Assembly (NCBI GenBank): GCA_900169235.1
Contig: FWCC01000543.1
Location: 1 to 48,878, forward strand
DNA from: Zarea fungicola
Taxonomy: Eukaryota; Ascomycota; Sordariomycetes; Hypocreales; Cordycipitaceae
Reading direction: 5' to 3'
DNA: 48,878 bases
Each line of letters begins with the position of its first letter. Position 1 is the stretch's first letter. A program made the position numbers and the translations under genes. The notes below the pieces were generated by a model that was not told the DNA's origin, searched no databases, and saw only the letters and a list, made by a program, of their open reading frames with translations. Below are positions 35,871 through 47,329 of the stretch, one piece after another.

Positions 35871-37178
35871 ATGGCTTCACAAAATCAGTCTCAATTTGAG
35901 CATGTCAAAGTTATCATTGCAGACACTTTGATTCCAGGAAAAGGCCAACCAATATCACCCGGGGCAATTGCTTACCAAGGCAAACGCATCATTTTTGCCG
36001 GGCCGAAACACAGTCTCCCAGCAGAGTACCAGTCCGCCAAACCGGTTCATTTTCCTGTCATTATGCCCGGTCTATGGGACTGCCATGTCCACTTCCTGGG
36101 CAGCCCACGGTTCTCATTCGACACGTTACTGAGCACACCACTGGTTTTGGTCGGCGCCAGGAGCGCATATGATGCTTCCCAAATCATCAACGCAGGCTTC
36201 ACTTCTGTGCGAGAGATGGGTGGTCATGGCGTGCATCTCGCGACTGCGATTGAGGAGGGGGTAGTTATTGGCCCCAACATTTATCCTGCTTGCTGCCTGA
36301 TCAGCCAAACGGGCGGTCATGCAGATGCACATAACGTTCCGGTTAATGTCTTTTGCGAGGCAGTCTCCAAAGGTCAACCATTTTGCGTGTGTGACGGCGT
36401 GGACGAGTGCATCAAGGGCGTGCGGACGCAAATTCGCCACGGGGCCAAGGTAATAAAGATATGCGCCAGCGGTGGTGTCGTCAGCTCAAGGGATAATCCC
36501 CATCATCAACAATTTTCTGTTGCTGAGATGCGTGTCATGGTAGAGGAAGCGGCACGCGGTGATCGTATTGTTGGCGCGCATTGCCATGGGAAGGCGGGCA
36601 TCATGGCCGCTCTCGAGGCAGGTGTCAAGACAATCGAGCATGGCACGTACCTGGACGACGAGGCCATACAGGCGCTGATTGAACATGATGCTATTCTGGT
36701 TCCAACCAGGTCGGCTATTACCGCAGCTCTACAACTCAAGGCCGCATTTGACCCAGAGTCGTACGAAAAACTAGCGGCCATCGTCCCCCAGCATCTAGAG
36801 GCCTATGGGAAAGCCATACAGGCTGGTGTCAGGATTGCGTTGGGTACAGATTTTGGCGTCAGCACTCCGGGTACTGTATTAAGCCATGGTAACAATGGAC
36901 GCGAGCTGGCCCATGCCGTTGAGGCGGGTATGACACCGCTGCAGGCAATCGAGGCCGCCACGGCCAATGCACCAGCAACATTAGGCCCCCAAGCACCACT
37001 TTCGGGACAACTGTTGGCTGGTTACGATGCCGATTTTATTGCCCTTTCAAAGAATCCGGCTGAAAACATCAATGTGCTCTCAGATACGACAAATATTACG
37101 CATGTCTGGAAAGGGGGCAGGCTATTGAAGTCACCCGAGGCGCCTGTGCATTCGCCCCTGTCGCATAACGGTATCTAG
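35871..37178 (+). CDS. Metal-dependent amidohydrolase (imidazolonepropionase/Xaa-Pro dipeptidase-like), 435 aa
   Basis: Single exon, ATG context AACATGG. The amidohydrolase metal site is complete: HxH as CHVHF (His72, His74), a candidate carboxylated Lys196 in GAKVIKICASGG, His237 in GAHCHG, His257 in IEHGT, and Asp327 in ALGTDFG. No signal peptide is evident, so it is likely cytosolic. This subgroup cleaves amide bonds in cyclic or N-acyl substrates, including prolidases and ochratoxinase-type carboxypeptidases. Its place beside the hydantoinase/DUF917 gene and permease suggests the hydrolysis of a linear N-carbamoyl or N-acyl intermediate, which is inference. It is convergent with the GMC oxidoreductase across 235 bp. 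Confidence 0.9.
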   Translation: MASQNQSQFEHVKVIIADTLIPGKGQPISPGAIAYQGKRIIFAGPKHSLPAEYQSAKPVHFPVIMPGLWDCHVHFLGSPRFSFDTLLSTPLVLVGARSAYDASQIINAGFTSVREMGGHGVHLATAIEEGVVIGPNIYPACCLISQTGGHADAHNVPVNVFCEAVSKGQPFCVCDGVDECIKGVRTQIRHGAKVIKICASGGVVSSRDNPHHQQFSVAEMRVMVEEAARGDRIVGAHCHGKAGIMAALEAGVKTIEHGTYLDDEAIQALIEHDAILVPTRSAITAALQLKAAFDPESYEKLAAIVPQHLEAYGKAIQAGVRIALGTDFGVSTPGTVLSHGNNGRELAHAVEAGMTPLQAIEAATANAPATLGPQAPLSGQLLAGYDADFIALSKNPAENINVLSDTTNITHVWKGGRLLKSPEAPVHSPLSHNGI

Positions 37179-44873: not shown

Positions 44874-46876
44874 ATGAAGAGCTTCTATCTCGTCATCGCG
44901 GCTCTTGCCAGTCTCGCCATTGCAGTTCCCGCTGCCGACTCTCTTTTGGGGGTGTGTTCTCGTGTCATCATAACTTAATTTGGCAAACTGACCAGATGCG
45001 TTTCCAATTCATAGGATAGAGCTATTGCCCCGGTAACTTGATCACGCTCAAATTTCAGCGCACGTTCTACCACTAACAGCTTCGGCAGTGTGTAAGTGTC
45101 GGCTCGATCCCCTAACTGCTACAAATATCTGACTTCAGCAGGGCGTATGTTGATAACTTGAAACTTCCGTCTAATTTCAAAAAGGCTCAGTTAGATTTAG
45201 GGCGTAAGTGTCCAGTCTTTAAGATAAGAAGTTGATGCTAATAAATTGATGCAGAAAGCCTGCGTTGGTACCCAAAGTCCAATTGTGCCACCGTTGTCTA
45301 ACCCGTCTTAGCCTGTACGATTACCTGCTGTGACCGAAACCAAGTCTATTGCTAACATTCCCGCAAGGCCGTACGTTGCATAATTCGAATCAAACAGAGA
45401 TATTTACTTAGCACTCCAATTACAGGGTGTAAGTGCCATGCTCTGTTGCCGAAACTGTACCTGAGACTCTGTTAACAAACCATCTCCAGACTGTATGTTT
45501 ACCATCTGACGTCTAACCTGATAGCCTTCTCTAACAGTCTTCAAATAGCGAGTAAGTGATTTATCTCATGCTACTGTTATTCAGCTCCGTCAGCTAATCT
45601 TAATGAAATTTAGTGCGTGAGTTGTTCCGTGGCCAGATCTGCAATTCTCATCACGAGACTGATAATCGATTTCAGTGCGTAAGTATTTGGGCTCCCCCGG
45701 TTACTGTTATCTTCCATCGCTAATAATGAGCAAGACCGTGAGTGAACTCTGCATCACCACATTGCAAAAGCTGCTACTAAACTTTTCATGGGTAGAACGT
45801 ATGTCGACAATGTTCAACGGACTGGCCTGGCGGGAGAGCTAATCAACCATATCTAGTGTGTAAGTGCATCACGCCAATATCCAACAACAACAGCCTATTC
45901 AGCGCTAATTTTTTGGAACTACAGGGCGTGAGTTTAAGCCTTGTGCCCTACGAAGAGGCGCCGTGCCACTAACCGGAGTTACCATATCCACTTTAGGGAG
46001 TAAGAATTCCCCAACATGCCTCTACTGAGCAGTGCTAATAGTATGCAACTTTAGGACGTATGTGAATGCCTTGGAATCATTGATTGGACGGATAGAAGAT
46101 GGCTAACATCATGGAATGTTAGTATGTATGTGTTGCACCTGAACCGTGATGCATGACCTGCTCCGCCGAGCAAAAACTGACGGATTCTGAATTCAGGTTG
46201 TAAGTACTACACTGCTTCCATTTCCCATGCACAGTATACTGAGCTGACAAAATGAAACAGTGCGTAAGAAATAAAATATTAAGCTCCACGAAACATGTAC
46301 TGAAACGTAGCACAGAGAGTAAGTGATAGTACATCATTCCTTGAGAAGTATCATTGCTAATACTATACACAGAGAGTAAGTAGCACCGAAGAGGAAGCCA
46401 CCTGAGTCCTGCATTAACTTACTTGGTTTATAGCCCGTAAGTTGTCAAGAAATGACCCAGATTCAATAGCAGAAGTATGTGATTGCTGAATGAAACATAC
46501 ACTTCAGGGCGTAAGTAAATCTACTCAGTTATCGGTACTTCAATTGGGCAATTAGACTAACTAACATGGTTCACAGCAAGCGGTAAGTGGTTCAGGCTCC
46601 CTGGGTACCAAAGTGAGGACCTACCTAACATGACCACAACAATCGCAAGTGTGTAAGTAGTTGCCGCTCCATCTTGCGTGTCATTTAAGCGTTTCTAATG
46701 TGGATACAAAGATTGTAAGTATTTCGAACCTCAGATTCATCTCTCGCAGCTTGCTTCAGCAGCCATCTTATCCGACGCGACGGAACCTAGTGCGTAAGTA
46801 TTTTCAGAATACCCACCATTCAGCTGCACTTGGGAAACGGTCTCTCTAAAAACTGTTTTCATATAAACAGCCATAA
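44874..46876 (+). CDS. Secreted 8-Cys peptide gene built of single-codon exons, about 64 aa, about 31 exons
   Basis: Exon 1 (44874..44951) encodes a signal peptide (MKSFYLVIAALASLAIAVPA) plus ADSLLG; exon 2 (45015..45032) encodes DRAIAP. After that almost every exon is exactly three bases between a canonical AG and GT. Exon starts with residues are 45089 C, 45142 G (or 45139 QG), 45201 G, 45255 KAC (9 nt), 45312 P, 45368 A, 45426 G, 45490 T, 45549 R, 45614 C, 45676 C, 45735 T, 45796 N, 45857 C, 45925 G, 45997 G, 46055 D, 46123 Y, 46197 V, 46261 C, 46316 R, 46373 R, 46434 P, 46508 G, 46577 QA (6 nt), 46650 C, 46712 I, 46791 C, 46871 P-stop. The introns are 48-77 nt, mostly with GTAAGT or GTATGT donors and CTAAC/CTAAT/CTGAC branch points, and are unlike each other in sequence. 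All junctions are phase 0. Cys spacing is C-x4-C-x5-CC-x2-C-x5-C-x6-C-x-C, like a disulfide-rich secreted peptide. Coding bases are about 10% of the locus. Function is unknown (effector, antimicrobial or signalling peptide are all possible). The last exon is the least certain. Confidence 0.82.
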
Positions 46877-47329
46877 ATTCATCTACAGAGAAATCGATCA
46901 ATGGTTCGAAAAACTCGAGCCTGGAATTTATGGAAGCTCTCGGTCGTTGTATGGAGTTCTTCACTGTAGCACCGCAAAATGCAAGCAGCTGGAGTTTAAG
47001 CTCGGCCGGCCGTCAGCGGGCAATACAAGGCAGAATACAGCATTTTTCACGCAATAAGACAAGTTCAAATACAATCAAATGTCTTGCCTTTCTCTCGTGT
47101 AGACTTTGCTGCTTGACCACCTAGGTTTTACTTCTCAGTTTCCAATTGGCTTCTCGACCAGTTCCATCCTTTATGTACAATGGAGTGACCCTGGAAATTT
47201 ATCACAAGAAATGCGCTGTCAGCATCTGGCGATTTCATGTGAGTAAATTTCTACTGCACAGCCTTCTGAGCAGAGCTACCTAGTAGTCTCACTATGAGTC
47301 GTCGACTATAGGGGCTTCCGTTCAACCAC
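46877..47329. other. Convergent intergenic region
   Basis: 3' flank of the single-codon-exon gene and of the permease. The reading frame of the last Cys codon stays open to 47057 if the last intron is retained. Confidence 0.45.

Follow-up and report, generated by a model that had tools for sequence, protein, structure and literature searches.

A gene composed mostly of putative single-codon exons in Zarea fungicola and its place in a small family of candidate secreted-peptide genes

The micro-exon genes (MEGs) of schistosomes are described as carrying most of their coding sequence in very small symmetrical exons, which give rise to variants by alternative splicing, with the products present in secretions (PMC4350168). 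The bicycle genes of aphids possess about 17 exons on average, with internal exons almost all in phase 2, and one large gene related to them is reported to comprise over 100 micro-exons (PMC9168663). Extremely short exons are also on record singly: the 1-nt exon of Fusarium CYP621A, which has transcript support, has been called the smallest described in fungi (PMC12940212), and a 1-nt exon was reported in Arabidopsis APC11, the smallest alternatively spliced exon before it being one of 3 nt (PMC4674806). According to a mitogenome paper, 3-bp exons had been reported earlier in fungi (PMC12308204), and a paper of 2024 stated that functional micro-exons were undescribed in filamentous fungi (PMC11121469).

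The stretch of DNA analysed here (the window; 48,878 nt from the mushroom parasite Zarea fungicola, a filamentous fungus of the Cordycipitaceae) is the whole of one contig, C30, and contains a predicted gene whose coding region is divided almost codon by codon. It shares with the MEGs the feature that the bulk of the coding region lies in small symmetrical exons, but MEG exons are longer than one codon, whereas 26 of the 29 internal exons of the window gene consist of exactly one, as do 46 of 46 and 11 of 13 in two sister genes of the same genome (C335 and C115, see below); MEGs belong to flatworms and the present genes to a fungus, and a sequence relation is not expected. The likeness to the bicycle genes, which are fast-evolving families of putative effectors, lies in the very many small exons of one phase, but bicycle exons span several codons and are in phase 2, whereas the exons predicted here span one codon and all introns are in phase 0. 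The tiny exons of APC11 and CYP621A show that such sizes can be spliced, and Fusarium and Zarea are both members of the Hypocreales; known exons of 1–3 nt are, however, isolated in ordinary genes, whereas here a whole gene would be built of them. The fungal mitochondrial 3-bp exons are not spliceosomal. Ratchet points likewise place an acceptor beside a donor and act in stepwise removal, but they leave nothing behind and serve long introns, whereas in the present genes each step would leave a codon and the introns are of about 60 nt; the zero-length exon of a ratchet point, i.e. AG followed directly by GT[AG]NGN, occurs nowhere in the gene interval. On the side of the product, the predicted protein recalls the small secreted cysteine-rich proteins of ascomycetes (a signal peptide and a short peptide with a CC pair), the genes of which usually have few introns; protein search, Pfam and NCBIfam gave no sequence match of the window peptide to this group. 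The preliminary description of the locus, made by inspection of the DNA, knew of no gene with most of its codons in separate exons, and no earlier account of a single-codon-exon gene was found among the top-ranked titles and abstract openings of the open-licence literature, subscription journals lying outside this search.

The model of the window gene comprises 31 exons (Table 1), with a spliced coding sequence of 195 nt (MKSFYLVIAALASLAIAVPAADSLLGDRAIAPCGGKACPAGTRCCTNCGGDYVCRRPGQACICP) and a predicted product of 64 residues. Start, end and spliced length are the same as those proposed in the preliminary description; its suggestion of about 26 consecutive single-codon exons holds for the number but not for the continuity, as the 26 exons of 3 nt form runs of 3, 20 and 3, split by two slightly longer exons (6 and 27). 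All 29 internal exons are multiples of 3 nt in phase 0 and together account for 111 of the 195 coding bases. The 30 introns, all of them in phase 0, are 48–77 nt long (median 58.5). The donors comprise 15 GTAAGT (a count made earlier and reproduced here), 5 GTATGT, 3 GTGAGT, 2 GTAAGA and 5 others, 29 of the 30 fitting GTNNGN with GTAACT as the sole exception, and the acceptors comprise 14 CAG, 12 TAG and 4 AAG (YAG in 26 of 30). One more triplet, at 46476, was dropped as an exon candidate, because its flanking introns would be of 39 and 29 nt.

Table 1. Predicted exons of the window gene and the element in its 3' flank (positions in the window)
Feature	Position	Strand	Basis
Whole coding region, candidate single-codon-exon gene	44874..46876	+	pattern counts, gene model, parser
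Exon 1, 78 nt, start codon and likely signal peptide MKSFYLVIAALASLAIAVPAADSLLG, donor GTGTGT	44874..44951	+	gene model
Exon 2, 18 nt, DRAIAP	45015..45032	+	gene model
Exon 3, TGT (C)	45089..45091	+	pattern site, gene model
Exon 4, GGC (G), NAGNAG acceptor	45142..45144	+	pattern site, gene model
Exon 5, GGC (G)	45201..45203	+	pattern site, gene model
Exon 6, 9 nt AAAGCCTGC (KAC), weak donor	45255..45263	+	gene model; absent from both parser versions
Exon 7, CCT (P)	45312..45314	+	pattern site, gene model
Exon 8, GCC (A)	45368..45370	+	pattern site, gene model
Exon 9, GGT (G)	45426..45428	+	pattern site, gene model
Exon 10, ACT (T)	45490..45492	+	pattern site, gene model
Exon 11, CGA (R)	45549..45551	+	pattern site, gene model
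Exon 12, TGC (C)	45614..45616	+	pattern site, gene model
Exon 13, TGC (C)	45676..45678	+	pattern site, gene model
Exon 14, ACC (T)	45735..45737	+	pattern site, gene model
Exon 15, AAC (N)	45796..45798	+	pattern site, gene model
Exon 16, TGT (C)	45857..45859	+	pattern site, gene model
Exon 17, GGC (G)	45925..45927	+	pattern site, gene model
Exon 18, GGA (G)	45997..45999	+	pattern site, gene model
Exon 19, GAC (D)	46055..46057	+	pattern site, gene model
Exon 20, TAT (Y)	46123..46125	+	pattern site, gene model
Exon 21, GTT (V)	46197..46199	+	pattern site, gene model
Exon 22, TGC (C)	46261..46263	+	pattern site, gene model
Exon 23, AGA (R)	46316..46318	+	pattern site, gene model
Exon 24, AGA (R)	46373..46375	+	pattern site, gene model
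Exon 25, CCC (P)	46434..46436	+	pattern site, gene model
Exon 26, GGC (G)	46508..46510	+	pattern site, gene model
Exon 27, 6 nt CAAGCG (QA)	46577..46582	+	gene model, parser
Exon 28, TGT (C)	46650..46652	+	pattern site, gene model
Exon 29, ATT (I)	46712..46714	+	pattern site, gene model
Exon 30, TGC (C)	46791..46793	+	pattern site, gene model
Exon 31, CCATAA (P, stop)	46871..46876	+	gene model, parser
Dispersed structured element, 3' flank of the gene	46930..47023	+	also downstream of C115 gene

The predicted product starts with a likely signal peptide, judged by eye, and contains up to eight cysteines. This product stands as first proposed, with exon 6 being its least certain part: the donor of that exon is GTTGGT, and the parser with generic splice weights omits it, which yields 61 aa and seven cysteines. 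The acceptor of exon 4 is also unsure, since an exon of 6 nt is possible there. The lack of stop codons, which had been offered as an argument for the same product, is mildly unlikely by chance (P = 0.023 for 89 stop-free triplets over four loci) and carries little weight on its own. Were any of the 30 introns retained alone, a frameshift or an added stop would follow, while the loss of any 3-nt exon would, by frame arithmetic, leave the frame intact. The reading that a micro-exon gene is here decaying into a pseudogene appears very unlikely: one further candidate codon at the weak sister locus C124 has no GT donor, and some members may thus be in decay, but the 26 triplets of the window gene include no stop codon, its donors and acceptors are nearly all regular (29 of 30 GTNNGN, 26 of 30 YAG), and start codon, likely signal peptide and stop are all intact. 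In the same region, a 75-codon open frame (46830-47057, + strand) spans the last intron and the 3' flank and is probably due to chance; an alternative acceptor near 46823 would lead into it.

The recurrence of AG-NNN-GT at nearly regular spacing, from which the gene was originally proposed, is borne out by counting. The pattern AG-N3-GT[AG]NGN occurs 26 times in 44950-46850, compared to 17 times in the rest of the plus strand (~47 kb) and 24 times on the whole minus strand of the window. Within the gene interval the excess is specific to n = 3 among all sizes of 0–30 nt, its 26 occurrences comparing with 6 for the next highest size, while outside the gene n = 3 is no commoner than other sizes on the plus strand of the window. 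When AG-NNN-GTRNG units separated by 45–90 nt are joined into chains, the chains of the window gene extend to 20 units at size 3, and none of the remaining sizes between 1 and 15 gives a chain of more than 2. In control DNA the longest chain for any size from 1 to 15 was 2; this set comprised positions 1-44800 of the window (plus strand), its minus strand, and 51 other loci (198,316 bases, both strands, a few of them overlapping), which are biased towards having such units, because many were chosen for one chance match to a pattern. Dinucleotide shuffling (300 shuffles of each gene, size 3 only) gave likewise a maximum of 2, so that random splice-like matches are insufficient to explain the chain, as had been argued earlier. 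The splice-like context of the triplets could also be confirmed: CTAAC or CTAAT lies 7–45 nt upstream of 18 of the 30 acceptors of the window gene, and of 3 of 251 AG-N3-GTRNG control sites.

The whole genome (43.1 Mb, 456 contigs) was scanned with seven short patterns of the type acceptor, codon class, donor, which gave 39, 30, 63, 92, 139 (100 of the 139 were examined), 35 and 66 matches. These totals carry no signal, as the same patterns reversed gave 37, 33, 43, 129, 96, 61 and 109; the signal lies in the clustering. Clusters identified by eye comprised the window gene itself and groups of matches on C115, C124, C335 and C230, and such a scan could overlook members of the family that have few units or whose codons the patterns do not cover. 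The C230 cluster, with a period of 57 nt, was rejected as a coding repeat: at C230:114301-117300 an ORF of 623 aa on the minus strand contains 19-residue repeats, which mimic AG-NNN-GTGAGT on the other strand. Three sister loci remain, two strong (C335 and C115) and one weak (C124). Both strong loci lie on the minus strand. In C335, exon 1 (MKYFVAIVLLLIGACMAIPIPEVNAEEG) is followed by 46 single-codon exons in a hand-curated model and by CATTAA, and the curated product, ITDLPIGVLHGILKGIAIGVYTGFHDVLGDFATVLGNSLPFFPKRPH, has no cysteine beyond exon 1 and is dominated by no such residue but rich in hydrophobic ones. This model was edited at the 3' end, where the raw parse replaces one triplet by an exon of 16 nt and overruns the stop; the intron after the AAG codon seems to be of the GC-AG type (AAG, then GCAAGT, the sole GC donor of the model), and the first intron, of 114 nt, may hide one more codon. 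In C115, exon 1 (MKFEIMIMTVLVAVVAASPVNKWFDPLEAR) is followed by M C D C N PR FG C C T C E C, with the two internal exons that are not single codons being of 6 nt and the stop coming directly after the last CAG. C124 is short and uncertain: in the part kept, 5 of 5 internal exons are single codons, but the longest chain is 3, the model needs introns of 140 and 151 nt, and the parse with default settings differs. The first exons of the window gene, C335 and C115 all read as signal peptides by eye. The content of cysteine in residues from internal exons differs between the genes, with 14 of 52 in the window gene and C115 versus 0 of 46 in C335 (p = 6e-5). No further chains were found in four stretches of 3–4 kb (on both sides of C335 and on one side each of C115 and C124).

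The loci were also analysed with a parser using hand-set generic fungal splice weights, in which exons of 1–59 nt are allowed and the exon-length penalty favours short exons, but not multiples of three. Of the internal exons that it predicted, 26 of 28 were 3 nt long in the window gene, as were 45 of 47 in C335 (44 of 46 with the first parser version) and 11 of 13 in C115; the scores of these genes were 320, 519 and 150, respectively, and C124 scored 68 (85 with longer introns allowed). Parses from 43 control starts scored 36.4 at most and contained 3-nt exons in 6 of 73 internal exons. Over the four loci CTAAY precedes 59 of 97 acceptors, a count that is partly circular, as the parser itself scored branch sites at the other three. 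An origin of the pattern by chance, by an artefact of assembly or by a coding tandem repeat has next to no probability. The C230 cluster shows that a coding repeat can mimic it, but chains never exceeded 2 in controls and shuffles, ORFs of at least 60 aa overlapping the gene region are short (five, the longest of 83 aa), only at the 3' end of C335 are units repeated copies of one another, and the design is found in strong form on three contigs and in weak form on a fourth. A tandem-repeat origin of the introns of the window gene was considered separately and rejected, as the gene contains no tandem repeat, just short direct repeats mostly centred on splice sites.

The strongest evidence that precisely the triplets would be read as codons comes from the 3' part of C335, which is a tandem repeat of 145 nt in four copies, each unit comprising two introns and two codons. 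In this one array of four copies in one gene, intron sites differ between copies in 73 of 702 pairwise comparisons (~10%; 25 of 139 columns vary), whereas exon positions differ in 23 of 36 (64%; 6 of 6 columns vary), and the contrast between columns is significant (Fisher p = 6.3e-5, or 1.1e-4 for four-copy columns only). The codons of the successive copies are TTG, AAT, TTG, TTT in the first exon position (A) and GGG, TCG, CCG, TTT in the second (B); among all 99 triplet windows of the array, exon B diverges most, and second place is shared by exon A and a window that overlaps exon B. In a neighbouring pair of C335 units the introns are 92% identical, and the units end in AAG in one case and AGA in the other. 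Such change confined to triplets is as expected for codons under diversifying selection. The array thus gives a snapshot of duplication and diversification at the level of codons, with nearly identical introns and mostly different codons, and it apparently reveals how residues are added, namely by duplication of an intron-plus-codon unit. The same manner of growth may apply to the other genes, but outside the array few intron pairs exceed the 99.9% level of shuffles (with a slight mean excess over shuffles), so that the duplication history of the window gene is not visible.

The array bears also on the idea that the AG-NNN-GT sites are stepping stones in the removal of one long intron, in which case the triplets might be joined for a short time, but most of them would be absent from the mature mRNA, and the product would be made of exons 1 and 2 plus the last exon, or be a mixture of forms. 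The layout is indeed close to that of recursive-splicing ratchet points, with an acceptor next to a donor, and the frame is kept when any 3-nt exon is skipped; on the other hand, short fungal introns need no stepping stones, the identity of skipped triplets would not matter, while their cysteine content is gene-specific, and the hypervariability in the C335 array is confined to the triplets. We regard this possibility as improbable.

A somewhat different question concerns the origin of the introns, i.e. whether an ordinary peptide gene of one or two exons was riddled by a burst of introner-like elements inserted between codons, a scenario compatible with the coding reading of the triplets. The introns are alike in size and all in phase 0, and the mean score of intron pairs within the window gene is 2.5, compared to -0.3 for shuffles, in which the branch site is broken too. 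Nevertheless, only 1 of 435 pairs within the window gene and 5 of 1410 pairs between the window gene and C335 exceed the 99.9% level of shuffles, and closely similar introns in many places, as introner-like elements would leave, were not found. A DNA search of the genome with the window gene returned just the match to itself, though this search is insensitive and missed the C115 copy of the 3' element described below. Random insertion, moreover, would not yield phase 0 alone. On balance such a burst seems rather unlikely.

Searches for homologues of the window peptide (protein search, Pfam, NCBIfam, PDB) revealed none at convincing scores, Pfam giving no match to the window gene at all, and the conserved peptide in related genomes, for which the preliminary description had proposed to look, did not emerge from the protein search. 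The protein search of the fungus' own genome has no power, as it misses even the window gene. For the C335 product only exon 1 finds a homologue, with no convincing match to a family or in the PDB. The hit is a predicted protein of 59 aa from a 3.8-kb contig elsewhere, in which 27 of 28 residues equal C335 exon 1 and which continues with VSARI, the translated start of C335 intron 1; the C335 locus therefore seems to be present in another sample. The alignment between the window and C115 peptides is no better than for shuffles (p = 0.77), and a common origin of these two peptides is unsupported. Likewise, blastn revealed no DNA common to the four loci, except for one element that lies in the 3' flank of the window gene and in that of C115; the kinship of the four genes rests therefore on their design. 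On the best reading, the window gene would be one member of a small gene family in its genome, united by this design.

The 3' element is a dispersed sequence of about 60 nt with the core GTTGTATGGAGTTC...GAGTTTAAGCTCGGCCG, found in 8 places, and its outer 6-bp stem shows compensatory changes in 3 of 6 pairs; an assignment of an inner stem was discarded, as 4 of 9 inner pairs are never formed, while the outer stem stands. No Rfam match for it was found in the window. Only 2 of the 8 copies lie in 3' flanks of micro-exon genes and six where no chain was found, and the element was therefore rejected as a sign of common descent of the window and C115 genes. The neighbours of the window gene include genes for an aromatic amino-acid lyase, P450, O-methyltransferase, MFS, AMP-binding, amidohydrolase, GMC oxidoreductase and sugar-transporter proteins and a tRNA-Arg; the amidohydrolase (35871-37178) is 95% identical to a Zarea fungicola protein, the next named matches being at most 66% identical. 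In positions 1-24000, the aromatic amino-acid lyase, P450, O-methyltransferase, MFS, a nitronate monooxygenase and the AMP-binding enzyme lie close together and could form a secondary-metabolite cluster.

The controls, the sister loci and the C335 array support the original proposal of a gene mostly of single-codon exons with a cysteine-rich product and a signal peptide. What the sequence itself displays is the exon chain above chance, its uniform phase, the existence of sister loci and, in the tandem array of C335, variability limited to the codons. The explanation we favour, with a probability of about 0.86, is a small family of secreted-peptide genes, in which the mature peptide would be encoded by nearly one codon per exon, spliced stepwise and extended by duplication of units. 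We infer that these genes are transcribed and completely spliced, and that their products are secreted, form disulphides and have a function. An ordinary exon 1 would encode the signal peptide, and almost each codon of the mature peptide would form a separate exon. In fungi the intron is the unit of recognition, and the introns of 48–77 nt, with strong GTRWGT donors, CTRAY branch sites and YAG acceptors, would be recognised singly by intron definition. They would presumably be removed stepwise, since an exon of 3 nt should be too short for two spliceosomes at once; each splice would add one codon and bring the next donor up against the lengthened exon, much as happens at recursive splice sites. 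The strong donors fit such a model, because the three exon-side positions of the donor are occupied by the codon.

The signal peptides, recognised by eye, and the cysteines suggest secreted disulphide peptides. For the window gene, the secreted peptide would have about 40 residues and be rich in disulphides. It would probably be deployed against other organisms or in contact with them, a role that is guessed from the kind of molecule and from the probable way of life of the fungus. The family would grow by tandem duplication of intron-plus-codon units, with the codons then diverging much faster than the surrounding introns. It is tempting to speculate that these genes act as codon-by-codon peptide generators, in which one gene would yield a library of length variants and residues would be duplicated in and retuned singly under strong diversifying selection. 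A library of variants would be possible, since nearly every exon is one whole codon and any pattern of skipping gives an in-frame peptide, but we consider this idea tentative and somewhat doubtful. If true, it would represent a distinct way to make and evolve peptides.

If transcripts confirm the predicted exons, we know of no gene design that would be more finely divided, as a single gene would have up to 46 single-codon exons. Such a design would bear on the minimum size and crowding of spliceable exons, on whether splicing in fungi is strictly stepwise, and on the way in which residues are added to peptide genes. Genes of this kind are likely to be missed by gene finders and by standard RNA-seq aligners, and whole classes of secreted fungal peptides may therefore lack annotation.
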